Shown: in pieces, positions 3,336 to 58,823 of the stretch
Layout: the number at the start of each line of letters is the position of its first letter
How positions within the stretch are numbered: the first letter of the stretch is position 1
DNA from: Candidatus Bacteroides intestinavium
GTDB lineage: Bacteria > Bacteroidota > Bacteroidia > Bacteroidales > Bacteroidaceae
Assembly: GCA_019118325.1 (NCBI GenBank)
Contig: DWZE01000042.1
Span: forward strand, 1-64,000
DNA: 64,000 nucleotides
Direction: 5' to 3'
Made by a program: the position numbers and the translations under genes
Notes under the pieces: model-generated
The model's database searches: none
The model's input: only the letters and a program-made list of their open reading frames with translations
What the model was told of the DNA's origin: nothing

Positions 3336-3801
3336 GCACGGATTGGGCGGGAAACTGACGGAAATAGAAGAGAAAAAGAGGAGAAGCGGCAGTCAAAAAA
3401 TGAACAGACGGGGTGGAATGAAGAAAGAAAACCTCTCGCCGGACTATCCGGAATAGGAGTTGAACAGGAATTGAACGTAAGTTGGAAGAGAGGTAAAAGA
3501 GAGGAGAAAGAGACCAGAAAGAGAGGAGAAAGAGAGGAAAAGCAAAGGAAGAAGGGCGGAGATATCGCGGAGTGAGGACGGAGATATCGACGGACACGGG
3601 CGGGGATATCGGCGGATAAGGGCGGGGATATACCGGCCTTGCGGGAGGAAGGAAACAATACAAGAAGCCATACAACATAAATCGGCATACACCGCAATCG
3701 GACATACACGACCGCAGGTGTTCCCCTACGGGAAGCCACCAACGGCTAAGCATAGTTCGACCCCTGTAGGGTCGGCAGTGCGTGCGGGATGACGTTATTA
3801 T
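3336..3801. repeat. Large dispersed repeat, copy A (with GATATC array)
   Basis: This stretch of about 465 bp is repeated at 56266-56697 with high identity. Shared in order are a GGGAAACTGA start, a purine-rich part with repeated GAGAGGAGAAAGAGA words, four 22-bp GATATC units, a TACCGGC segment, then CGCAGGTGTTCCCCTACGGG and a GTCGGCAGTGCG end with GATGACGTTATTA. Copy A has an extra insert of about 35 bp near 3670-3710. The long - strand frames across it are low-complexity and differ between copies in start and frame, so no gene is called. Confidence 0.85.
3561..3632. repeat. GATATC array with 22-bp period (array 1)
   Basis: GATATC begins at 3561, 3583 and 3605, and a degenerate GATATA begins at 3627; each step is exactly 22 bp. 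Units have the form GCGGAGATATCGNCGGA plus a 5-6 bp spacer. A 22-bp unit is not a multiple of three, so the array is not conserved as codons. Confidence 0.9.
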
Positions 3802-4009
3802 ATAAGGTATAGGGGGATTGTTGCAACTTGGCGTTTCCACGGTCAGCATTAAAATTGAGACGATATTTACTAATCAAATGATTCCGTCTCGTTTTTCATG
3901 AAAGCAGAAACGGCAGGACGAGGGAAGGAAAGCGGGCAGGCTGGACAAGATTTCAGTAGGGGGGACAAGGAACATGCGGGCAATGCTTGGCCACGCCACG
4001 AAGTTTTTG

Positions 4010-5854: not shown

Positions 5855-5958
5855 GTGGTGTGAGTGGTGAGCGATTAGTGATTAGCATTTCGTACGCTGC
5901 TCATCACTAACCACTAATCACTAACCACTAACCACTAATCACTAACCACTAATCGCTA
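5855..5958. repeat. Heptad inverted repeat (ATTAGTG / CACTAAC family)
   Basis: GATTAGTGGT and GCGATTAGTGATTAGC at the left face CACTAACCACTAATCACTAAC words at the right, in 7-bp steps. It lies between two converging genes and may act as a two-way terminator. Confidence 0.6.
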
Positions 5959-5962
5959 ACCA

Positions 5963-7705
5963 CTATTCAAACAGCTTCCGATAGTCCCGCTCCGCAGCCG
6001 GCTTCACCCAATTCTGCGGGATGAACTTCCATTGCTCCAGACTCTCGGGCGTGATGACTTTCCGCTGCGCGATGTATTGCATCAGGTAGTAACGCAGGTC
6101 CTTGTCCGTAGAGAAAAGAATGCGGTCCTTCAACTTCTCTTGCGGGATGCCGGCTCCCCGGGTCAGCAACTCCCCTCCCCCATTCCCACGATAGGAATTG
6201 ACGGCCACCCGGTACATCCTATTCTCATCGAAAGGCGTTCCGTCGGCCATGCTCAGGATGGTGACTTTCTGACCGGCCGGACGGGTAACATCCACCGTGT
6301 AGAGGATGCCGGCAGCAGAATCGAAGTTGTAGCTGGGATTGCGGAAAAAAGTACGCTCCTCTGCCCCCTTTCCTTGTCCGGAAGGCTCGCGCAAGAGCAA
6401 CAGGTCATCGTCCGGCGCCTGCATCTGGTTGGTCCACAAGGCGTAGGACATCTCCAACGCTCCCCGGATTTCCTTGCCGGAGAGGGACATCGTATAGAGC
6501 ATGTTCTCATATTTATAAAGGTTGAACATATCGCTGACGCAAATGTCGCCTTCCTCAATCCGCGCATCAAAGGACAGGGGTGCCGCCAATGAAATCTCCG
6601 CCTGTCCAATCTCCAGTTGCAGGCGATGGATCAGATCCACAAAGGCCGAAGGCCCGAAATAGGCAGGACGCGTGGAAATAGACCGGGTGAAACGGCCTAT
6701 CTTCTTGGAGACAAAGGCCTGGATCGTGTCATACTGCGCCGAGAAGTGCGCCATGAAATCCCGGTCAGGCTCCAGGGCACCGACATCTGTCAGACGGCTC
6801 TCCACCCGCTTGCCTGTCACCTTGCCATCCTGCAAGGTCAGCGTGACCTCCACATCGCCCACGGTAACCGCATTGTTGGCGGGATTGACCACCCACACGG
6901 AATCCCCGTCAGCGTTGGCTACTTGGAAGCAAGCGCGTGCATGGTCGTGTCCAGCCAGTACCACATCAAAGCCCGGCACGTTGCACGCCACCTCCACCGA
7001 AGCATTGTCCCTATACTTGCCCCCCATCAGCACGGCTTTCTTACCCGCATGGAAGAGGCCGATGATCAGGTCGGGCTTTTCCTGCTCCCGGATGACGGGC
7101 ATCCATCGGCGAGCCGTTGCCTCCATGTCCTCGAAAGAAAGTCCGGGCCAAAGATTCTCGGAGAGCCACATCGGAATGGCTGGCGTAATCATGCCCAGTA
7201 TGGCAATCCGGACGCCTTCACGCTCCAGCATGACGTAGGGCTTGAAATGAGGCCGCCCCGTGGACCGGTCTATTACATTGGCTCCCAACACCGGGAAACG
7301 GCAATCCGCCGCCCAGCGGTCGAAGACTGCCCGTCCTGTCTCTATGTCATGATTACCCACTGTCCCGGCATCGTAATCCATGTAGTTCTGCATCTCTGCC
7401 GTCAGGTGGGGAGATACCGTGTCCATATAATTATAGTAATAGGCCGAAGGCTGACCCTGGAGAATATCCCCGTTGTCCAGCAATATCAGGTTGTCCCCGT
7501 ACCTCTGCCTTTCCTGCCTCACGAAGGCCTGCACCCGTGCCAGGCTTCCCGAGGCCGGCTGCCTGCGGATGAAGTCATAGGGATAGAAATTGCCATGCAC
7601 GTCGGAAGTTTCCACAATCTTCAGTTTGACGACTTTATCCTGTGCGACAACTCCACTCCATAGCCCCCAAAACAACAGGGCAGCAATCAATAACTTCTTC
7701 AACAT
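5963..7705 (-). CDS. Secreted 5'-nucleotidase / 2',3'-cyclic-nucleotide phosphodiesterase-type metallophosphatase
   Basis: This protein likely dephosphorylates nucleotides in the periplasm. A signal peptide covers residues 1-22 (LLIAALLFWGLWSGVVAQ). The metallophosphatase domain shows ETSDVHGNFYPYD, LDNGDILQGQP, VGNHDIE and LAGHDHARA. The C-terminal 5'-nucleotidase domain follows from about residue 330, with VNSYRGNGGGELLTRG near residue 500. The length of 580 residues fits a two-domain enzyme. Exact substrate cannot be told from sequence. It starts 19 bp after the rfbC stop on the same strand and may share its transcript. Confidence 0.9.
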   Translation of the reverse strand: MLKKLLIAALLFWGLWSGVVAQDKVVKLKIVETSDVHGNFYPYDFIRRQPASGSLARVQAFVRQERQRYGDNLILLDNGDILQGQPSAYYYNYMDTVSPHLTAEMQNYMDYDAGTVGNHDIETGRAVFDRWAADCRFPVLGANVIDRSTGRPHFKPYVMLEREGVRIAILGMITPAIPMWLSENLWPGLSFEDMEATARRWMPVIREQEKPDLIIGLFHAGKKAVLMGGKYRDNASVEVACNVPGFDVVLAGHDHARACFQVANADGDSVWVVNPANNAVTVGDVEVTLTLQDGKVTGKRVESRLTDVGALEPDRDFMAHFSAQYDTIQAFVSKKIGRFTRSISTRPAYFGPSAFVDLIHRLQLEIGQAEISLAAPLSFDARIEEGDICVSDMFNLYKYENMLYTMSLSGKEIRGALEMSYALWTNQMQAPDDDLLLLREPSGQGKGAEERTFFRNPSYNFDSAAGILYTVDVTRPAGQKVTILSMADGTPFDENRMYRVAVNSYRGNGGGELLTRGAGIPQEKLKDRILFSTDKDLRYYLMQYIAQRKVITPESLEQWKFIPQNWVKPAAERDYRKLFE

Positions 7706-14739: not shown

Positions 14740-17523
14740 ATGGATAATTTTCTTTCCAAACTGAAAATCAACCCAGCCGCCTCTTTCTCCACAGAAAGAT
14801 ATACCGGACAAGACATTTTTTTTAAATTGGACGCGACAGGCGACGAGACCTTTCTCTGCGTGGTCAATGGCAAAGGGGAGGATATTACTCCCGATTATCG
14901 CTATTATGCAGGCTCCGTGGCTCAACTGCTGCGCAGCATGGACAACGCGCGCCGCGAGCAGGTGCATCAATTTTCCTGGGACGGCGTTGATGAAGGAATC
15001 AGCCTGAAGACACATCCTTACCTGTTGTTTCCACTCGCTTTATGCAAGAACATCGTGGACGAAAACATGAATCCCATCCACGTGAGCGAAAACAACGCTT
15101 CCCTGCAATTGTCGCTTCGCCGGGAAGGCGATACCATTATCCCTGACTTGCAGGCCAATGTAGGCGACGGGAGCATTCAGAAAGAGTTCCGCCTGTTGTC
15201 AGACAGTTTCCTTCTGGCGGACCACACGCTCTATCCCACATCGCCCGTGGGCGACAACTACACCCAGCTTCCTTTCTTCATCGAGCCTTTCCGCGAAGAC
15301 CTGTTGGAAAGCTACCTGTCCATCTTTTGTTCGTTCATTGAAAACGTGCAGCCGGTGTCCGAAGATTTTGAGGTGGTGGTCAATCCGGACGAGAAAGTCC
15401 GCACTTCGCCCGCTATCCTTTTCGAACAGGTAGACGATGACAATGCGCTCTATCTGAAAGTGATAGAATCCATACCCGGTCTTCCGGTAGACTTGACGAG
15501 CCAATTCGAACTGACCCGTACGGCCACCCGCACACTGGACAGGCAAGTCCTTGTGAGGCCGCTGGAGCATGTCTCGCTGGAAGAATCGCTTGCCAGGGTC
15601 AAAAAGCAGATTATCCAGAGCACCTCCGACAAGCAAGCCCGGAAAGATGTCTATCAGGATGGCAACCTGTTTATCATCCCCGGCGATACGGCTGCCCACT
15701 TCTTGCGACAGGGCCTGCTCTCGTTATTGAAGGACTTCCAACTGATAGGAACAGACAAACTCCGCAAATACAACCTCCAGCTGGTGCGTCCACGCTTGAA
15801 CTTGCAGTTGTCATCGGGTATCGATTTCCTGGAGGGCGATGCCGACGTGGAGGTTGGCGAAGAACACTTCAGTTTGCAGGAATTCCTGGCGCAATACCGC
15901 AAGCAGCATTACATCCTGCTCTCCGACGGAAGCCATGCCTTGATGGACGAGAACTATATGCGGAGGCTGGAGCGCCTCTTCAGGCTGAAGAAGAAGGACA
16001 AGGAGGTAAAAGTGTCCTTCTTCGACCTGCCGGAAATAGAAGAAATGCTGGACAGCCAGCTGACCGGCGAAGTGTTCAAGCATCACCGTGAAGTGTATGA
16101 AGGCTTCAACCTGCTGAAGAAGCAGAAACTCCGCCTGCCCGCTTTGAATGCCACTCTGCGTCCCTATCAAATAGAGGGCGTGAAGTGGATAAAATACTTG
16201 CACGACAATAAGTTGGGCGGATGCCTGGCCGACGACATGGGATTGGGAAAGACTCTGCAAGCCATCACCATACTGACTATGCTCTATCCGAAAGAAAAAA
16301 CGCCCAGCCTGGTGGTGATGCCCCGAAGCCTGCTCTTCAATTGGCAGGACGAACTTAACAAATTTGCCCCGTCTCTTTCCGTCTATACCTACTACGGACA
16401 TGGACGTAACCTGAAAGAGGCATTGTCCCACCAGGTTGTTCTCACTACCTACGCCATGGTGCGCAACGATGCCGAAGCCTTCAGCCGGGAGCAGTTCTAC
16501 TATGTCATTCTGGATGAGAGCCAGAACATCAAGACCATAAACGCGCAAACCACCCAGGCCGTATTCCTGCTGAAGGCACGCCATCGGTTAGCTTTGAGCG
16601 GAACCCCGGTGGAAAACAATCTGACGGAACTGTATTCGTTGTTCCGTTTCTTGAATCCCACCATGTTCGGCAGCCTCAGCGATTTCAACGAACAATACAC
16701 CTATCCCATCCAGCGGGAAAATGACAAAGAAGCACTGGAAAGTCTACGCCGGAAGATATTCCCCTTCCTCTTGCGCCGCCTGAAGCGGGATGTGCTGAAA
16801 GAATTGCCCGACCGCACGGAGCAAACCCTCTACGTGGAGATGGAGAAAGCACAGGCCGATTTCTACGAACAACGCCGCCGCTACTACTACCGGCAGGTAA
16901 AGGAAAATATCGCCACCGAAGGCATCCAGAAATCCCAATTCATCATGTTCCAGGCACTGAGTGAACTGCGGCGCATCGCTTCCGTGCCGGAAAGCCTGAC
17001 CGATGACAAAATCACCTCGCCCAAGCTGAACCTGCTGCTGGAAACCGTTTGCGAGGCGGTGACCAACCGCCACAAGGTTGTCATCTTCTTCAACTTCATT
17101 GCCGGGCTGGAATTGGCGGGAGAACGTCTGGAGAAGGAAGGCATCGACTTTGCCAGCATGACAGGCTCCACGCACGACCGGCGAAGCGTGGTGGAGCGTT
17201 TCCAAAACGATCCTCAGTGCATGGTGCTGCTCATGACCCTGAAAACGGGAGGCGTAGGGCTGAATCTGACTGCGGCAGACACCGTGTTCATCTTCGAACC
17301 GTGGTGGAACAAAGCAGCCGAGGAGCAGGCCATCAACCGACTGCACCGCTATGGGCAGACCGCCAAGGTGTTGAGCTATTCGCTTATCACCAAAGGGACC
17401 ATCGAGGAAAAAATACTGCAATTACAACAACAGAAATCGGCCTTGTTCAACGAACTGATAGGGAGCGATTCGGCCTTATCGAAACATTTGACCGAGGAAG
17501 ACATTAATTACATATTAGGCTAA
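14740..17523 (+). CDS. SNF2-family DEAD/DEAH-box helicase/translocase
   Basis: This 927-residue protein is a SWI2/SNF2 ATPase, expected to move on double-stranded DNA rather than unwind it. About 470 N-terminal residues are family-specific and not recognised. Motif I is DDMGLGKT near residues 498-505, motif II is DESQ near 592-595, motif III is ALSGTPVENN, and motif VI is LHRYGQ near 868-873. The C-terminal lobe is complete (TLKTGGVGLNLTAADTVFI). It is coupled to the next gene with only 2 bp between. RapA-like or defence roles are possible but unproven. Confidence 0.94.
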   Translation: MDNFLSKLKINPAASFSTERYTGQDIFFKLDATGDETFLCVVNGKGEDITPDYRYYAGSVAQLLRSMDNARREQVHQFSWDGVDEGISLKTHPYLLFPLALCKNIVDENMNPIHVSENNASLQLSLRREGDTIIPDLQANVGDGSIQKEFRLLSDSFLLADHTLYPTSPVGDNYTQLPFFIEPFREDLLESYLSIFCSFIENVQPVSEDFEVVVNPDEKVRTSPAILFEQVDDDNALYLKVIESIPGLPVDLTSQFELTRTATRTLDRQVLVRPLEHVSLEESLARVKKQIIQSTSDKQARKDVYQDGNLFIIPGDTAAHFLRQGLLSLLKDFQLIGTDKLRKYNLQLVRPRLNLQLSSGIDFLEGDADVEVGEEHFSLQEFLAQYRKQHYILLSDGSHALMDENYMRRLERLFRLKKKDKEVKVSFFDLPEIEEMLDSQLTGEVFKHHREVYEGFNLLKKQKLRLPALNATLRPYQIEGVKWIKYLHDNKLGGCLADDMGLGKTLQAITILTMLYPKEKTPSLVVMPRSLLFNWQDELNKFAPSLSVYTYYGHGRNLKEALSHQVVLTTYAMVRNDAEAFSREQFYYVILDESQNIKTINAQTTQAVFLLKARHRLALSGTPVENNLTELYSLFRFLNPTMFGSLSDFNEQYTYPIQRENDKEALESLRRKIFPFLLRRLKRDVLKELPDRTEQTLYVEMEKAQADFYEQRRRYYYRQVKENIATEGIQKSQFIMFQALSELRRIASVPESLTDDKITSPKLNLLLETVCEAVTNRHKVVIFFNFIAGLELAGERLEKEGIDFASMTGSTHDRRSVVERFQNDPQCMVLLMTLKTGGVGLNLTAADTVFIFEPWWNKAAEEQAINRLHRYGQTAKVLSYSLITKGTIEEKILQLQQQKSALFNELIGSDSALSKHLTEEDINYILG

Positions 17524-19527: not shown

Positions 19528-19707
19528 ACCCGTTGGCGGAATTAATTGGGGTATGCCCCCCCGGGCGGAGATATCTTCGGGCCAAGACAGAGATATCTTC
19601 GGACAAGGACGGAGATATCTCTGGACAAAAGCGGAGATATCCGCCCGCAAAACCGTACAATGGACCGACAGATAAAGTGCATATCGGTTATAATTCCGCC
19701 AATGGGT
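19528..19707. repeat. MITE-like element C with terminal inverted repeats and a GATATC array
   Basis: The element begins ACCCGTTGGCGGAATTA and ends TAATTCCGCCAATGGGT, an inverted pair with one mismatch. Between the ends are a four-unit GATATC array and the segment GACAGATAAAGTGCATAT. A second copy with the same ends and inside order is at 50806-50989. It is about 180 bp with no coding capacity. No clear target-site duplication flanks this copy. Confidence 0.8.
19570..19641. repeat. GATATC array with 22-bp period (array 2)
   Basis: GATATC begins at 19570, 19592, 19614 and 19636, each exactly 22 bp apart. The common unit is CGGAGATATCTNCGG followed by ACAAGGA. It lies inside element C. Confidence 0.92.
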
Positions 19708-24170: not shown

Positions 24171-25019
24171 TCAGCAAGCCTTGAAACTCATGTCCAGTCC
24201 CTTGACGGAATGCGTCAGGGCACCCACCGAGATAAAGTCCACGCCACACTCGGCGTAATCGCGCAGGGTGTCAAACGTGATGCCGCCCGAGGATTCGGTC
24301 TCATAACGTCCCCCCACCATCTCGACGGCTTTGCGGGTAAGTTCCGGCGTGAAGTTGTCGAACATGATGCGGTCCACTCCGCCCACGTTCAGGACTTGCT
24401 GCAGTTCGTCGAGGTTACGAACCTCAATCTCAATCTTCAGGTCCTTGCCCTTCTCCTTGCAATACTCCTTGGCACGCAGGATGGCCTTGTCAATGCCTCC
24501 GGCAAAGTCCACATGGTTGTCCTTCAGCAGAATCATGTCGAACAGACCGATGCGATGGTTGACGCCTCCGCCTATCTTCACGGCCATTTTCTCCAGGATG
24601 CGCATGCCGGGTGTTGTCTTGCGGGTGTCCAACACGCGGGTGTGCGTGCCTTTCAACTGCCCGGCATAGCGATGGGTCATAGTGGCAATACCGCTCATGC
24701 GCTGCATGATGTTCAGCATCAGGCGCTCCGTCTGAAGCAAAGATTGCACCTTGCCTTCTACCACCATCGGCACGTCGCCCGGCTTCACTTCGGAACCGTC
24801 GGGCATGAACACCTCCACCTTCAAGGTGGGGTCAAAGCGCCGGAACACTTCCTTGGCCACCTCGATGCCGGCCAGGATGCCCGGTTCCTTAATCAGAAGT
24901 TTGGACTTCCCCATCTCTGTGGCGGGGATGCAGGACAGCGTGGTGTGGTCGCCATCGCCGATGTCTTCCGCAAAAGCCAGGTCAATCAGCCTGTCTATCA
25001 ATTCTTGTTCCTTTGTCAT
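24171..25019 (-). CDS. nadC: Quinolinate phosphoribosyltransferase (NadC)
   Basis: It makes nicotinate mononucleotide from quinolinate and PRPP in NAD synthesis. At 282 residues it shows EDIGDGDHT, LNIMQRMSGIATMT, the active-site DTRKTTPGMR, KIGGGVNHRIGLFDMILLKD and FDNFTPE. The ATG overlaps the stop of the DUF4783 gene (ATGA type), so both are translated together. nadA and nadB are not in the window. An inverted repeat follows its stop. Confidence 0.97.
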   Translation of the reverse strand: MTKEQELIDRLIDLAFAEDIGDGDHTTLSCIPATEMGKSKLLIKEPGILAGIEVAKEVFRRFDPTLKVEVFMPDGSEVKPGDVPMVVEGKVQSLLQTERLMLNIMQRMSGIATMTHRYAGQLKGTHTRVLDTRKTTPGMRILEKMAVKIGGGVNHRIGLFDMILLKDNHVDFAGGIDKAILRAKEYCKEKGKDLKIEIEVRNLDELQQVLNVGGVDRIMFDNFTPELTRKAVEMVGGRYETESSGGITFDTLRDYAECGVDFISVGALTHSVKGLDMSFKAC

Positions 25020-25408
25020 TGTTCTGTCTTATCTATCCTTATTTGATGTATGAAATACTTGTTCTGTATGCGCCGGAAAAAGCAATTCACGCGGAAAATG
25101 CCATTGCCGGTCCTCAATGTCCCTACGATGAAACTCGATTCACCCCGCTTGCCCTGGTGGTTCACATCGAATCCTTTTACCGGATTGCCGGAGAAGAAAG
25201 ACGTCAACGTCTCCTGCGCCAGTGTCTTGTCCGCACTGACGGTCTTCTCCTGGATGGTCAGGTCCACCTTCTCGCCCAAATACCTGTTCAGTTCCTGAGG
25301 GCTCCCCTTCTTGAGGGCCACAATCACGCCTACAGGCACGTCCTGCGCGAAAGCGAAGGTTAACCACATAAAGAGGCAAGTCACTATCAAAACTATCCGC
25401 TTTCCCAT
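25016..25408 (-). CDS. Secreted DUF4783-like protein
   Basis: This 130-residue protein has a signal peptide (VLIVTCLFMWLTFAFAQ) that fixes the start at 25408; codons upstream to 25459 are not needed. The mature part is SnoaL/NTF2-like in rhythm (LKKGSPQELNRYLGEKVDL, FFSGNPVKGF, ENCFFR-type end) and resembles the Bacteroidetes DUF4783 family. Its stop overlaps nadC. A -7 box TACCTTTG (- strand, 25431-25438) is 22 bp upstream. Function is unknown. Confidence 0.8.
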   Translation of the reverse strand: MGKRIVLIVTCLFMWLTFAFAQDVPVGVIVALKKGSPQELNRYLGEKVDLTIQEKTVSADKTLAQETLTSFFSGNPVKGFDVNHQGKRGESSFIVGTLRTGNGIFRVNCFFRRIQNKYFIHQIRIDKTEQ

Positions 25409-25499: not shown

Positions 25500-25593
25500 G
25501 ATATCTGCGGGCACGGACGGAGATATCCGCGAAGGAAAGCGGAGATATCCGCGAAGGAAAGCGGGGATATCCGCGAAGGAAAGTCCGGATATC
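25500..25593. repeat. GATATC array with 22-bp period (array 3, five units)
   Basis: GATATC begins at 25500, 25522, 25544, 25566 and 25588, all exactly 22 bp apart. Three units are near-identical: GATATCCGCGAAGGAAAGCG plus two bases. No wider element or terminal inverted repeat is seen here. It lies in the divergent gap between DUF4783 and rlmH, 37 bp before the rlmH -7 box. Confidence 0.95.
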
Positions 25594-25662: not shown

Positions 25663-26136
25663 ATGAAGACAACCCTGCTTGTAGTGGGCCGCACCGTCGA
25701 ACCCCACTTCATCACCGCCATCGACGACTATGTGCAACGCACACGCCGCTATCTGTCGTTCGACCTGGAGGTCATCCCCGAACTGAAGAACACCCGGAGC
25801 CTCTCCACCGACGTGCAGAAGGAACGGGAAGCCGACCTCATCCTGAAAGCGCTCCAGCCGGGCGACGTGGTGGTGCTTCTGGACGAAGGAGGCAAGGAAA
25901 TGCGCTCCGTGGAATTCGCCGAGTATATGAGGCGCAAGATGAACACGGTCAGCCGGCGGCTGGTCTTCGTGGTGGGCGGCCCCTACGGCTTTTCCCGGCG
26001 GGTGTACGAGGCAGCACAGGAGAAAATCTCCCTCTCACGCATGACCTTCTCCCACCAGATGGTACGCCTCATCTTCGTGGAGCAACTCTACCGGGCCATG
26101 AGCATCCTGCACGGCAGTCCCTACCACCATGAATAA
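25663..26136 (+). CDS. rlmH: 23S rRNA (pseudouridine1915-N3)-methyltransferase RlmH
   Basis: RlmH is a small SPOUT methyltransferase that modifies pseudouridine 1915 in helix 69 of 23S rRNA. The 157-residue length matches the family. FVVGGPYGFSRRVYEAAQ is the SAM-binding knot and SLSRMTFSHQMVRLIFVEQL the conserved C-terminal part, with LDEGGKEMRSVEFAEYM in the middle. The start is the MKTTLLVVGR Met; upstream in-frame codons are AT-rich and lie before the promoter. Confidence 0.97.
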   Translation: MKTTLLVVGRTVEPHFITAIDDYVQRTRRYLSFDLEVIPELKNTRSLSTDVQKEREADLILKALQPGDVVVLLDEGGKEMRSVEFAEYMRRKMNTVSRRLVFVVGGPYGFSRRVYEAAQEKISLSRMTFSHQMVRLIFVEQLYRAMSILHGSPYHHE

Positions 26137-31956: not shown

Positions 31957-32472
31957 AATTCTTAGCAGAAATAAAGTTAATAATATGATATTTATATTGC
32001 AAATAGGGGTTAGCCCTTATTATGTTACAAAGCTAAGATTTTTTTCTGAATTTTCCACATAAACACTTCACTATTTTTCTATTAGTTTTTTAAAAAGTGG
32101 ATATCTGGTTCTCAAAAGCCACATCCGATAAGTGTCTTGGCCGGATGAAATTCCACCGGATAAGCAGATTGCGAGGATAATGCCTCATGAGGTACATATG
32201 AGCAAGAGGAGGAATATGTCGAAAGTGAAGAACGAAAAGGAATGTTCGCAACTGGCCTAAGCATAGGATGAAAAACAAAGTAAACAAACTTCTACGACCA
32301 TTTCATCTTACTTCTATGACCATTTCACCTTACTTCTATGACGGTTGAAGCATAGCTACATTTACCAAAACGTCACTTGGTGGAATGCGGGCAATTCATT
32401 TTTTCCTGCATTTATTAGCAGATTCTACCAGAAAGCCCTACATTTGCACACAAAACCATAAAGTGTGCAATC
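31957..32472. other. Intergenic region before the acyl-CoA ligase
   Basis: About 500 bp without a supported gene. It is AT-rich at the left. A tandem 22-bp array lies at 32288-32355. The -7 box TACATTTG (32439-32446) is the likely promoter of the ligase, 26 bp before its ATG. Short frames in 32090-32287 have no family resemblance. Confidence 0.5.
32288..32355. repeat. Tandem 22-bp repeat, ACTTCTATGACC type
   Basis: ACTTCTA begins at 32288, 32310 and 32332, exactly 22 bp apart. The unit is ACTTCTATGACCATTTCACC plus two bases. The third unit diverges into GGTTGAAGCATAG, which also occurs at 8651-8673. Confidence 0.85.
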
Positions 32473-40487: not shown

Positions 40488-40580
40488 GGGACTTTAGACC
40501 TCTCAAAAGGGACTTGAGCGAGCCAAAGAGGGACTTTGACTGAGCCAAAGAGGAACTTTGACTGAAACAAAGAAGAACTT
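40488..40580. repeat. Tandem 21-22-bp repeat, GGGACTTTGACTGAGCC type
   Basis: GGGACTT or its variants begin at 40488, 40509, 40530, 40552 and 40574 (steps 21, 21, 22, 22). The unit is GGGACTTTGACTGAGCCAAA plus two bases. It fills nearly the whole gap between the Crp-like gene and fcl. Confidence 0.85.
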
Positions 40581-40611
40581 TTGAATAACCGGATTCATCA
40601 CCTATTTCACT

Positions 40612-50805: not shown

Positions 50806-50989
50806 ACCCGTTGGCGGAATTAATTGTGGCATGAAAGCCTACGAGCGGGGATATCTCCGGGTCAGGGCGAAGATATCTGCGGACAAGGACGGAGATATCT
50901 GCGGACAAAAGCGGAGATATCTACCCGCAAAGCCGCACAAGGGACTGACAGATAAAGTGCATATTGTGGTCATAATTCCGCCAACGGGT
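50806..50989. repeat. MITE-like element D with terminal inverted repeats and a GATATC array
   Basis: It begins ACCCGTTGGCGGAATTA and ends TAATTCCGCCAACGGGT, a perfect 17-bp inverted pair. It has the same inside order as element C: four GATATC units, then CGCACAAGGGACTGACAGAT and AAAGTGCATATT. Short words CGTATTG (left) and CGTATGG (right) flank it and may be a target-site duplication with one mismatch. It lies between glnS and the TPR gene. Confidence 0.85.
50850..50921. repeat. GATATC array with 22-bp period (array 4)
   Basis: GATATC begins at 50850, 50872, 50894 and 50916, all 22 bp apart. The common unit is CGGAGATATCTGCGG plus ACAAGGA, nearly the same as array 2. Confidence 0.93.
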
Positions 50990-56265: not shown

Positions 56266-56697
56266 AGTGGATTAGTCGGGAAACTGATGGAAATAGAAGG
56301 GGAAAAGGGGAGAACCGGCAGTCAAAAAATGGACAGATGGGGTGGAACGGAGAAAGAAAACGTTTTGCCGGGCTATATAAGATAGGAATTGGACAGGAAT
56401 TGAACTTAAGTTGGAAGAGAGGTAAAAGAGAGGAGAAAGAGACCAGAAAGAGAGGAGAAAGAGAGGAAAAGCGAAGGAAGAAGGGCGGAGGTATCGCGGA
56501 GTGAGGACGGAGATATCGACGGACACGGGCGGGGATATCGGCGGATAAGGGCGGGGATATACCGGCTTTGCCGGGAGGAAGGGAATAATACAAGAAGCCC
56601 TGCAACCGCCGCAGGTGTTCCCCTACGGGGAGCCAGCAACGGATAAGCATAGTTCGACCCCTATGGGGTCGGCAGTGCGGGCGGGATGACGTTATTA
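56266..56697. repeat. Large dispersed repeat, copy B (with GATATC array)
   Basis: It matches 3336-3801 over most of its length: GGGAAACTGATGGAAATAGA, the GAGAGGAGAAAGAGA purine part, the array, and the GTGTTCCCCTACGGGG to GACGTTATTA end. It stops right at the comEC stop codon, and the shared sequence ends with GATGACGTTATTA. Copy A has about 35 bp that copy B lacks. Confidence 0.85.
56490..56561. repeat. GATATC array with 22-bp period (array 5)
   Basis: GGTATC at 56490 (degenerate), GATATC at 56512 and 56534, and GATATA at 56556, all 22 bp apart. It has the same decay pattern in the last unit as array 1. Confidence 0.9.
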
Positions 56698-56699
56698 CA

Positions 56700-58823
56700 T
56701 CACGGCAGGGGCACCCACAACGCCCCCTCCCTGTCCAGGGCATGAACGGGAATGCCCCGCCGGAGACATTCTTCCTCCATGCGGCGGCGGTAGTAGCCGG
56801 TGAAGGAGGCATCGAACACGACGTAGCGCACGTCGAAGAGGCGGTCCAGGTCGCCAAGGGTGCCGCGGTAACCCCGGCAGACATAGAGGTAGTCCACAGG
56901 CAGGAGGATGTCGGACCGCTTGCCGGCCCAACGGCCGTCGTGCAGGATGCAGACACGGCAACCGCCGTAGTGCAACAAGCCGTCGCGCACGGACAAGGCG
57001 GCATCGGCATATCCGTCTGCCACCGGCCGGGGGCTATCCAGGCGCAGACGCCGCCAATGGGGAGCCAGCGAACGGGACATGCGCTCCACATCGGGCAGGG
57101 TGTCCGCCCCTACCAGCCAGGATGCGCGCCCGCCGGAGAGGCAATGCACAGCCGGGACACGGCTGACGTGATAGAAGGCAAGCCCTCTGTCGGGCAAGGA
57201 GCGAAGCATGGCCAGGCCATGATAGGACACCATGACGCACAAAGACAGCAGCATCCAACGGAGCCGACGGGGCGTGGGACGCCGAAAAACAGCGTAGGAC
57301 AGCCCCAGGAAAAGATAAAACAACACCACATCCCACGCATCCACCCAAATGTCATCCAACGAGGCATAAGGCAAACGCTCCACCCACCGCAAGCCCTCGT
57401 TCTGCAGCCAGACCAAGCAGTCCAACGCCCGGGCCACCCCCATCTGGACGGCGGGCAGCGGCGTCAGCAACAGGAGCAATACGGCGACATAGAGTATCAG
57501 CGAGGCCAGGGGAACCACCCACAAGTTGCTGAGCAGGAAATGGGTGGAGAAACGGCCGAAATAGAGCAACACGAGCGGCGCCGTCCCCACCTGGGCCGCC
57601 ACAGACACCGTCATCAGGCCCCACACATAGCGGCACAAGCGGTTGCGGGGCTGCCAGGCGCGATACAGCAGAGGCTGCAAACACAGAATGGCGGCCAACG
57701 AGAGAAAAGATAGTTGGAAACTGACCTCGAACAGCCACATCGGCCGGACCAGCAGCATCAGGAAGGCTGTGGCAAACAACGAATGGAGCGTCAGCAACTT
57801 CTCGGACTGCAAGGATGCCAGGGCCAGGAGAGAGAACATCGTGACCGAACGCACCACGGGCGAGGCCAGGCCGGTGAAGAAGGCAAATGCCCACAAGAAC
57901 AGCACGACCGCAAACATCAGCGGCAGGTGTGTCCAGCGCCACCGCCTCCACACCGGACGAAGCAGAAAAAGAAGGAGGACATACAGAAAACCGATGTGCA
58001 ACCCCGACAACGACAACACATGGCTGGCGCCGGAAACGGAATAAGTCTCTACGATGTCTTCGCCCAGCTTATCCTGATCGCCCACGGTCAGGGCGGAAAG
58101 CACCGTCAGTTCATTGCCCCGGAAACCCAGACGGCGATAGAGAGCGACCACCTGCGCCCGATAGTCCAACGCCATCTGCCGGAGCGTGCGCGTGGAGTCG
58201 TGCCCCACGACCTGCCAATGTCCCGCAGGCACATAGGCCGTCCCGCTCACTCCCTGCCTGCGCAGGTAGCGCCCGTAGTCGAACTCATCGGGATTGCCCT
58301 GATTGCGCGGCAATGACAGGCGTGCGGAGAGTAACAACTCATCGCCCCGGCGCAAACGCGCGGACGCAGAATCTTTGGGAAAATACAGGAGGAACAGGGG
58401 CGGACGGCTTTCAGCCCGGAAGGTATCGCCCGCATAGACGCCCCGCACGCGGGCCGGACAGAGACGGCTACGCTCCTTCTCTTCCGGAGACTCGGCGATA
58501 CGCACCCGGCAAACAACCTCTGACGGAGGATAGTCGCGCACGACAGCCGCCCCCTGCCAGGCCGCCAGCTGAAAACCAATCAACAGCCATCCCACACAAG
58601 CCCCGCCCCCATAGAGCACAGGCCAACCGCGGCGATGGCACAGATACATCCCCAGCAGCCACAGGGCAGCCGCTCCACAGAAGTACCCCCACGGGCAAGG
58701 GTGCGGGAAGGCATCTCCCCACACAATCCCTGCCACCAGTGGCAACAGCAGCCTCAGAAAAGGCTGCCGCCGCAGAGCCTCCACCGCCTCTGTCCACACG
58801 GTCAGAGATTTTTCAAGGCCCAA
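56700..58823 (-). CDS. comEC: ComEC/Rec2 family DNA-uptake channel protein
   Basis: A polytopic membrane protein for DNA transfer across the inner membrane. The 707 residues comprise membrane helices, the DUF4131-like part, and the competence core (SGASHVLSLSGLHIGFLYVL; FFTGLASPVVRSVTMFSLLA). The C-terminal 150 residues hold the place of the MBL-like domain but lack the HxHxDH metal motif. The start is TTG at 58823 overlapping rpe or GTG at 58799 just after the rpe stop. Confidence 0.9.
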   Translation of the reverse strand: MGLEKSLTVWTEAVEALRRQPFLRLLLPLVAGIVWGDAFPHPCPWGYFCGAAALWLLGMYLCHRRGWPVLYGGGACVGWLLIGFQLAAWQGAAVVRDYPPSEVVCRVRIAESPEEKERSRLCPARVRGVYAGDTFRAESRPPLFLLYFPKDSASARLRRGDELLLSARLSLPRNQGNPDEFDYGRYLRRQGVSGTAYVPAGHWQVVGHDSTRTLRQMALDYRAQVVALYRRLGFRGNELTVLSALTVGDQDKLGEDIVETYSVSGASHVLSLSGLHIGFLYVLLLFLLRPVWRRWRWTHLPLMFAVVLFLWAFAFFTGLASPVVRSVTMFSLLALASLQSEKLLTLHSLFATAFLMLLVRPMWLFEVSFQLSFLSLAAILCLQPLLYRAWQPRNRLCRYVWGLMTVSVAAQVGTAPLVLLYFGRFSTHFLLSNLWVVPLASLILYVAVLLLLLTPLPAVQMGVARALDCLVWLQNEGLRWVERLPYASLDDIWVDAWDVVLFYLFLGLSYAVFRRPTPRRLRWMLLSLCVMVSYHGLAMLRSLPDRGLAFYHVSRVPAVHCLSGGRASWLVGADTLPDVERMSRSLAPHWRRLRLDSPRPVADGYADAALSVRDGLLHYGGCRVCILHDGRWAGKRSDILLPVDYLYVCRGYRGTLGDLDRLFDVRYVVFDASFTGYYRRRMEEECLRRGIPVHALDREGALWVPLP

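Follow-up and report, generated by a model that had tools for sequence, protein, structure and literature searches.

In Candidatus Bacteroides intestinavium, GATATC palindromes recur at a pitch of exactly 22 bp in about a hundred arrays, which are almost always intergenic and mostly four units long, and the palindromic cores are under selection. We read these arrays, at roughly even odds (about 50%), as homotypic operator arrays for a candidate DNA-binding protein, one version of which has been spread by a ~181-bp MITE. Among the explanations considered, homotypic binding-site arrays account best for the data because they fit the core constraint, the symmetry of the sites, the general lack of compensation between arms and the fixed pitch.

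GATATC arrays at a 22-bp pitch

The DNA analysed (the window) is a 64-kb stretch in which the spaced pair GATATC-N16-GATATC was found 13 times against an expectation of 0.01. A preliminary description had reported GATATC or one-base variants at 22-bp steps, with four or five units, at five separate loci. All five arrays were confirmed at their coordinates (Table 1), but they cannot be counted as five separate cases. One MITE accounts for the arrays at 19570 and 50850, and one ~465-bp segment, whose two copies (3340-3803 and 56269-56700) are 84.7% identical, for those at 3561 and 56490. Only the 25500 array has neither MITE nor duplication flanks. It sits between divergent genes, one at 25016-25369 on the minus strand and one at 25663-26136 on the plus strand that we take from its translation to be rlmH, with a TANNTTTG -7-like box between array and rlmH. 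The window further contains two 22-bp arrays that are free of GATATC (32264-32365 and 40492-40601) and were absent from the preliminary description.

Table 1. Arrays and their carriers in the window, and related arrays in other genomes
Feature	Position	Strand	Details
GATATC array and 11-bp purine repeat in ~465-bp duplicated segment	3340..3803	+	Array 3561-3632; purine repeat 3486-3542; units 3561, 3583, 3605 exact GATATC, 3627 GATATA
MITE copy with 4-unit GATATC array	19528..19707	+	Array 19570-19641; TIR ACCCGTTGGCGGAATTA/TAATTCCGCCAATGGGT; units 19570, 19592, 19614, 19636 exact GATATC
Solo array, 5 exact GATATC units at 22 bp	25500..25593		Unit starts 25500-25588
22-bp array without GATATC, other family ACTTCTATGACCATTTCACCTT	32264..32365		Between divergent genes
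22-bp array without GATATC, other family GAGCCAAAGAGGAACTTTGACT	40492..40601		Takes up the gap separating a pair of co-directional genes
Second MITE copy with 4-unit GATATC array	50806..50989	+	Array 50850-50921; unit starts 50850-50916
Second copy of duplicated segment	56269..56700	+	Array 56490-56561; units GGTATC 56490, GATATC 56512, GATATC 56534, GATATA 56556
CTATAG arrays in other Bacteroidaceae	L191-L209, e.g. L191:1479-1572		Four units mostly

Rfam matches in the window were limited to RNase P RNA and tRNAs, and a known RNA family was rejected for the arrays on this basis. Other tandem repeats in the window have a 7-bp unit (CACTAAC, 5905-5965) or an 11-bp unit (AAGAGAGGAGA, 3486-3542 and 56415-56471); a purine repeat similar to the latter is present in the same dnaK-RNase P gap of a sister genome, G002. 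The window also encodes an SNF2-type helicase of 927 aa (14740-17523, plus strand) whose matches to the pilus-regulating Snf2 and Zorya ZorD families fall short of the curated cut-offs.

The whole host genome (2.71 Mb in 138 contigs, 82% complete) holds 297 GATATC-N16-GATATC pairs and none of the reversed pattern, which bears out the earlier expectation of an excess far beyond chance. We sampled 818 kb of it, partly picked around MITE copies. The distances between GATATC sites in this sample were 22 bp (158 pairs), 44 bp (103 pairs) and 66 bp (51 pairs), and no other distance up to 150 bp exceeded three pairs. The exact 22-bp pitch that had been noted in the window is supported. Exactly four units were spanned by 47 of the 63 arrays of at least two units. 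About two thirds (~40/63) were MITE cargo, a share that this choice of sample has likely inflated. The solo arrays were all intergenic and a single MITE array overlapped a gene call, a weak one, so that the arrays do lie between genes rather than inside them, as had been anticipated.

A MITE that carries one version of the array

The ~181-bp carrier is a MITE by its structure. Its 16-bp TIR, CCCGTTGGCGGAATTA, gave 86 matches at up to two mismatches, mostly as facing pairs, and the inverted ends of the element read ACCCGTTGGCGGAATTA...TAATTCCGCCAAYGGGT. Thirty copies were recovered by their ends alone. Most were 178-185 bp long, other lengths (139, 158, 161, 205, 206 and 211 bp) fell near 22-bp steps, and 15 of the 30 are bordered by an exact target duplication that spans 7-10 bp (usually 8-9 bp). 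Three orthologous sites in G002 (L016, L039 and L055) are empty of the MITE. Several host contigs end inside a copy (L029:17, L034:13, L053:9779, L056:9401, L057:11 and 10756), and the true copy number is therefore probably higher. One host-type MITE with its array was found in a genome of another genus (L190; G357:C1:4073557), which suggests horizontal movement.

The palindromes might instead be transposase or host-factor sites that serve transposition of the MITE as an internal enhancer, with the solo arrays as decayed MITEs. The ends of Tn7, which carry 22-bp repeats, offer a parallel to such internal sites. This would fit the ~40 of 63 sampled arrays that lie in the MITE, the stronger conservation of cores than of TIRs (see below) and the partial MITE flanks retained at some solo arrays (e.g. 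L029:1983 and L068:10738). We nevertheless regard it as very improbable: most solo arrays are without TIR remnants, an array of the GATATC family in the sister species has a different core and no recognised TIR, and there are species whose comparable arrays have different flanks or lack flanks of this kind. Nor was an autonomous partner found, as the incomplete host genome contained no TIR pair at transposon length and the plasmids and phages searched gave no plasmid match and no convincing phage match.

Selection on the cores and symmetry of the sites

To compare the parts of the element we used 22 full-length MITE copies that had been collected by TIR and not by GATATC. The GATATC cores were changed at 5 of 528 positions (0.9%), the TIRs at 40 of 834 (4.8%), the spacers at 125 of 1056 (11.8%), and the flanks and other internal sequence at 209 of 1574. 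Core positions thus vary ~12 times less than the spacers within one element, and also less than the TIRs, and we conclude that the cores are under selection. Because the copies are related, a per-cell Fisher value exaggerates the significance; the column-level test agrees (Mann-Whitney p=1.6×10−5).

The sites of the solo arrays show a twofold-symmetric, position-specific constraint. Preferences at −1/+1 (A/T), −3/+3 (G/C) and −4/+4 (C/G) are symmetric about GATATC, most other flanking positions have no complementary preference, and information in the oriented spacers is uneven (0.17-1.81 bits per position). The solo arrays were found by GATATC, so the value for their core is biased; the spacer pattern is free of that bias. 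The host site consensus is roughly C-G-N-A-GATATC-T-N-C-G.

These results bear on the idea that the arrays are largely non-functional slippage repeats spread by the MITE, with period and copy number set by the duplication mechanism and core identity due to recent common origin. Such an origin would account for the many unrelated sequences that share the 22-bp period, for some arrays of 21 and 23 bp, for MITE lengths that step by about 22 bp and for arrays gained or lost between sister species. It would not account for cores that vary less than both spacers and TIRs or for conservation that is symmetric and position-specific, and free slippage would not favour exactly four units and one period, nor does the E. 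coli sample described below, which has no arrays, agree with it. We consider this explanation improbable.

The array strands form strong RNA hairpins (z −2.9 to −8.4), which in the MITE arrays take the shape of a single nested hairpin (z −8.4 and −7.1), but any palindrome array would fold well, and hairpin strength alone is non-discriminating. The discriminating question is whether arms pair better within one array than between arrays. There was no such within-array compensation in the solo arrays (z −0.5) or in the nested fold of the MITE (z 0.9). The adjacent fold of the MITE gave z −2.6 and the nested fold of Prevotella pallens arrays z 1.3; arrays of the genome RGIG4776 gave strongly negative values, probably from unreliable array orientation. 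The exception was the middle pair of the MITE: units 2 and 3 show better pairing inside one array than across arrays (z 3.2). The results favour a sequence that is read as duplex, while leaving room for structure. Twofold symmetry together with the mostly absent compensation favours protein dimers over hairpins.

A hairpin or cruciform element of the REP/BIME kind, with a nested 1-4/2-3 fold, formed in RNA or in extruded DNA, acting in mRNA processing, termination or topology, is rather unlikely in our view, though several observations speak for it. Four units suit a 1-4/2-3 fold, MITE arrays do nest (z −7 to −8.4) and their middle units compensate. In RGIG4776, many arrays start A-rich and end T-rich (AAAACGAG...CTCGTTTT, e.g. 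L122:3953 and L137:791) and lie near stop codons, where they resemble bidirectional terminators. Against a hairpin stand the missing compensation in solo arrays and in the nested MITE fold, and the 6-bp core, which is nearly invariant instead of being swapped in compensated pairs. Host arrays are followed by no T-run, terminator-like matches were at shuffle level (7 found against 6.7 expected), and non-MITE host arrays are rare between convergent genes. An RNA element of fixed sense was also rejected: an orientation bias relative to genes, suspected at first, vanished once all 20 solo arrays, some of them ambiguous, had been classified.

In the operator reading, each array would be a cluster of mostly four palindromic sites for one twofold-symmetric DNA-binding protein, and the 22-bp pitch, about two helical turns, would align its dimers on one face of the DNA for cooperative binding. 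The protein may act on transcription or on nucleoid structure. The MITE would carry one version of the array and would have spread it. Three observations detailed below also speak for this reading: non-MITE arrays, which often lie beside promoters, flank TANNTTTG boxes but leave them free of overlap; such arrays are rare in convergent gaps; and an independent family, AGGTGSCACCT, retains its palindromes and pitch at an orthologous site. A cooperative dimeric binding protein had been proposed before; the twofold symmetry fits a dimer, which may bind cooperatively. Counting against the operator reading are the lack of shared function among neighbouring genes, the high turnover of arrays, the strong hairpins, the z of 3.2 for the MITE middle pair, the different placement of arrays in other species, the existence of non-palindromic 6-mer arrays at 22 bp in a few relatives and the fact that no more than about half of the non-MITE arrays score clearly as palindromic.

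Placement, turnover and the wider class of arrays

With gene starts taken from our own gene caller, the non-MITE 22-bp arrays of the host and G002 lie in 30 tandem, 22 divergent and 1 convergent gap, with 4 at contig edges. Convergent gaps thus hold 1 of the 53 classified arrays, against 79 convergent ones among the 631 gaps that measure 100 bp or more (binomial p about 0.007, calculated by hand). At 59 gene starts next to non-MITE arrays, a TANNTTTG box separates the array from the gene 29 times and lies past the array 9 times; no array has one inside it. Placement differs in P. pallens, whose arrays have repeated flanks and occupy long gaps (convergent in 10 of the 21 cases classified), and in RGIG4776, whose arrays are often just past stop codons, and a link to promoters is therefore seen in the host clade only. 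Judged by translation, the genes next to host solo arrays are of the housekeeping type, and they have no evident common function. No replication or partition gene was noticed among the flanking translations read, and no candidate gene for the binding protein was evident among those of the host and of single arrays of other species.

Where G002 and the host can be aligned, their DNA is ~85% identical, and GATATC arrays are few in this MAG. Its contigs C45 (L226) and C119 (L228) contain stretches that are 99.5-99.95% identical to the host genome, possibly through cross-binning or recent transfer. Conservation at orthologous sites, which had been put forward as a test, turned out to be low: one of four comparable non-MITE GATATC arrays is retained in G002, and with a changed core. 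This array (host L019:10954) has the same place and 22-bp pitch in G002, with the cores GGTACC, CGTACC, GGTACC and CGTACC. The arrays at L022 and L044 are absent from G002, where the gap that holds the former, between what are presumably yicC and gmk, measures 8 bp. The turnover of arrays at orthologous sites is high. Among 11 G002 arrays, hand-picked for similar spacers, the units were GGTACC (13), CGTACC (10), GATACC (5), GATATC (4) and others (6). At one orthologous site of an AGGTGSCACCT family, both genomes keep palindromes at 22 bp and the spacers have diverged. Avoidance of restriction-modification was rejected, as neither GATATC (0.87 and 0.79 of expected outside arrays in the host and G002) nor GGTACC (0.94 and 0.99) is strongly depleted.

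We also scanned without regard to sequence, using 66-bp windows with at least 66% self-match at lags of 14-39. In the host sample, lag 22 accounted for 72 sites and no other lag for more than 7. The counts for G002 were 26 (lag 22), 12 (lag 21) and 8 (lag 23), and 200 kb of E. coli had no array at any lag in the range. GATATC is missing from 17 of the host lag-22 sites and from nearly all G002 sites, which fall into several sequence families, many of them palindromic (CGATAGNNCTATCG, CTACATGSCATGTAG, AGGTGSCACCT and others). In 48% of non-MITE arrays the palindrome score exceeded that of column-permuted controls by over 2 sd, so palindromicity is common and not universal.

Other genomes had been proposed for comparison, and GATATC triples were indeed found in 8 of 399 genomes of the family (377 triples in RGIG4776), but the 22-bp spacing also occurs with other units. 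CTATAG, the reversed control of GATATC, forms triples in roughly 20 of the 399; in Bacteroides these arrays have mostly four units at 22 bp, flanking inverted arms and spacers of alternating orientation. P. pallens and RGIG4776 have many GATATC arrays with unrelated spacers. Among 121 genomes, triples were found for GGTACC in none, for CCATGG and GATAAC in one each and for CAATAG, a non-palindromic reversed control, in several, which weakens palindromicity as a universal feature. GATATC, the pattern originally singled out, is constrained in the host yet is a lineage-specific core, with about two thirds of its sampled copies carried by the MITE, and we rejected it as the essential feature because other families share the 22-bp format. 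The core differs by lineage (GATATC; GGTACC/CGTACC in the one orthologous sister array; CTATAG), and the constant feature is therefore the geometry. Phage origin was rejected, the matches in viral contigs being mostly 11-bp, AT-rich or chance-like triples, none with the host unit. One unrelated viral contig has a clean, iteron-like 22-bp array of five GATATCATTGTGCGTCCAAACT units with unrelated spacers (L288:4752-4845).

The preliminary description knew of no named Bacteroides element with this pattern, and our literature search, with subscription papers and preprints outside its coverage, agreed: it returned BrickBuilt and a REP survey, and nothing matching. BrickBuilt is a MITE/minisatellite of Porphyromonas gingivalis, present in 19 copies, with 1 to ~23 units of 23 nt, indels, a leader and a tail, and a target duplication without fixed length; the text of the paper does not mention GATATC (PMC4596501). 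Both are Bacteroidales MITEs with short tandem repeats in variable number and many intergenic copies. Compared by description, the host element differs in its 22-bp period, mostly four units and strictly kept cores, solo arrays occur as well, and the target site is duplicated over 7-10 bp, usually 8-9 bp; the different period and structure argue against identity with BrickBuilt. REP/BIME elements likewise have many intergenic palindromic copies of species-specific sequence, but the host units are direct tandem repeats at 22 bp, its non-MITE arrays avoid convergent gaps and its solo arrays lack pairing compensation. Plasmid iterons, such as those of R6K, are direct repeats at a 22-bp pitch that bind protein cooperatively. 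The arrays share the direct repeats about 22 bp apart, but they number about a hundred in one chromosome, and their housekeeping neighbours, with no replication gene noticed, speak against iterons. A CRISPR array was rejected, since the repeat is 6-12 bp and the spacers are near-copies of each other. Homotypic operator clusters resemble the arrays in palindromic sites, helical phase, position near promoters and half-site constraint, and differ in that the neighbours of the arrays have no common theme and the core varies between lineages.

If the arrays are operators, their layout would have been kept across the Bacteroidaceae, with related proteins, or one protein of drifting specificity, sharing the architecture. 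We tentatively raise the possibility, itself doubtful, of a hitherto unrecognised Bacteroidaceae class of regulatory or architectural elements set by geometry (short palindromes at a 22-bp pitch, usually in fours) and read by a protein family, in which the palindrome would be replaced in concert at many sites during lineage divergence (GATATC, GGTACC, CTATAG and others). The array class as a whole may be a mix of functional and neutral repeats. The four-site arrays could be used as ready baits for the candidate protein. If proteins do bind them, the arrays would represent a chromosome-wide DNA-binding system in common gut bacteria whose site code changes between close species, and would be a natural case of many binding sites changing in coordination.
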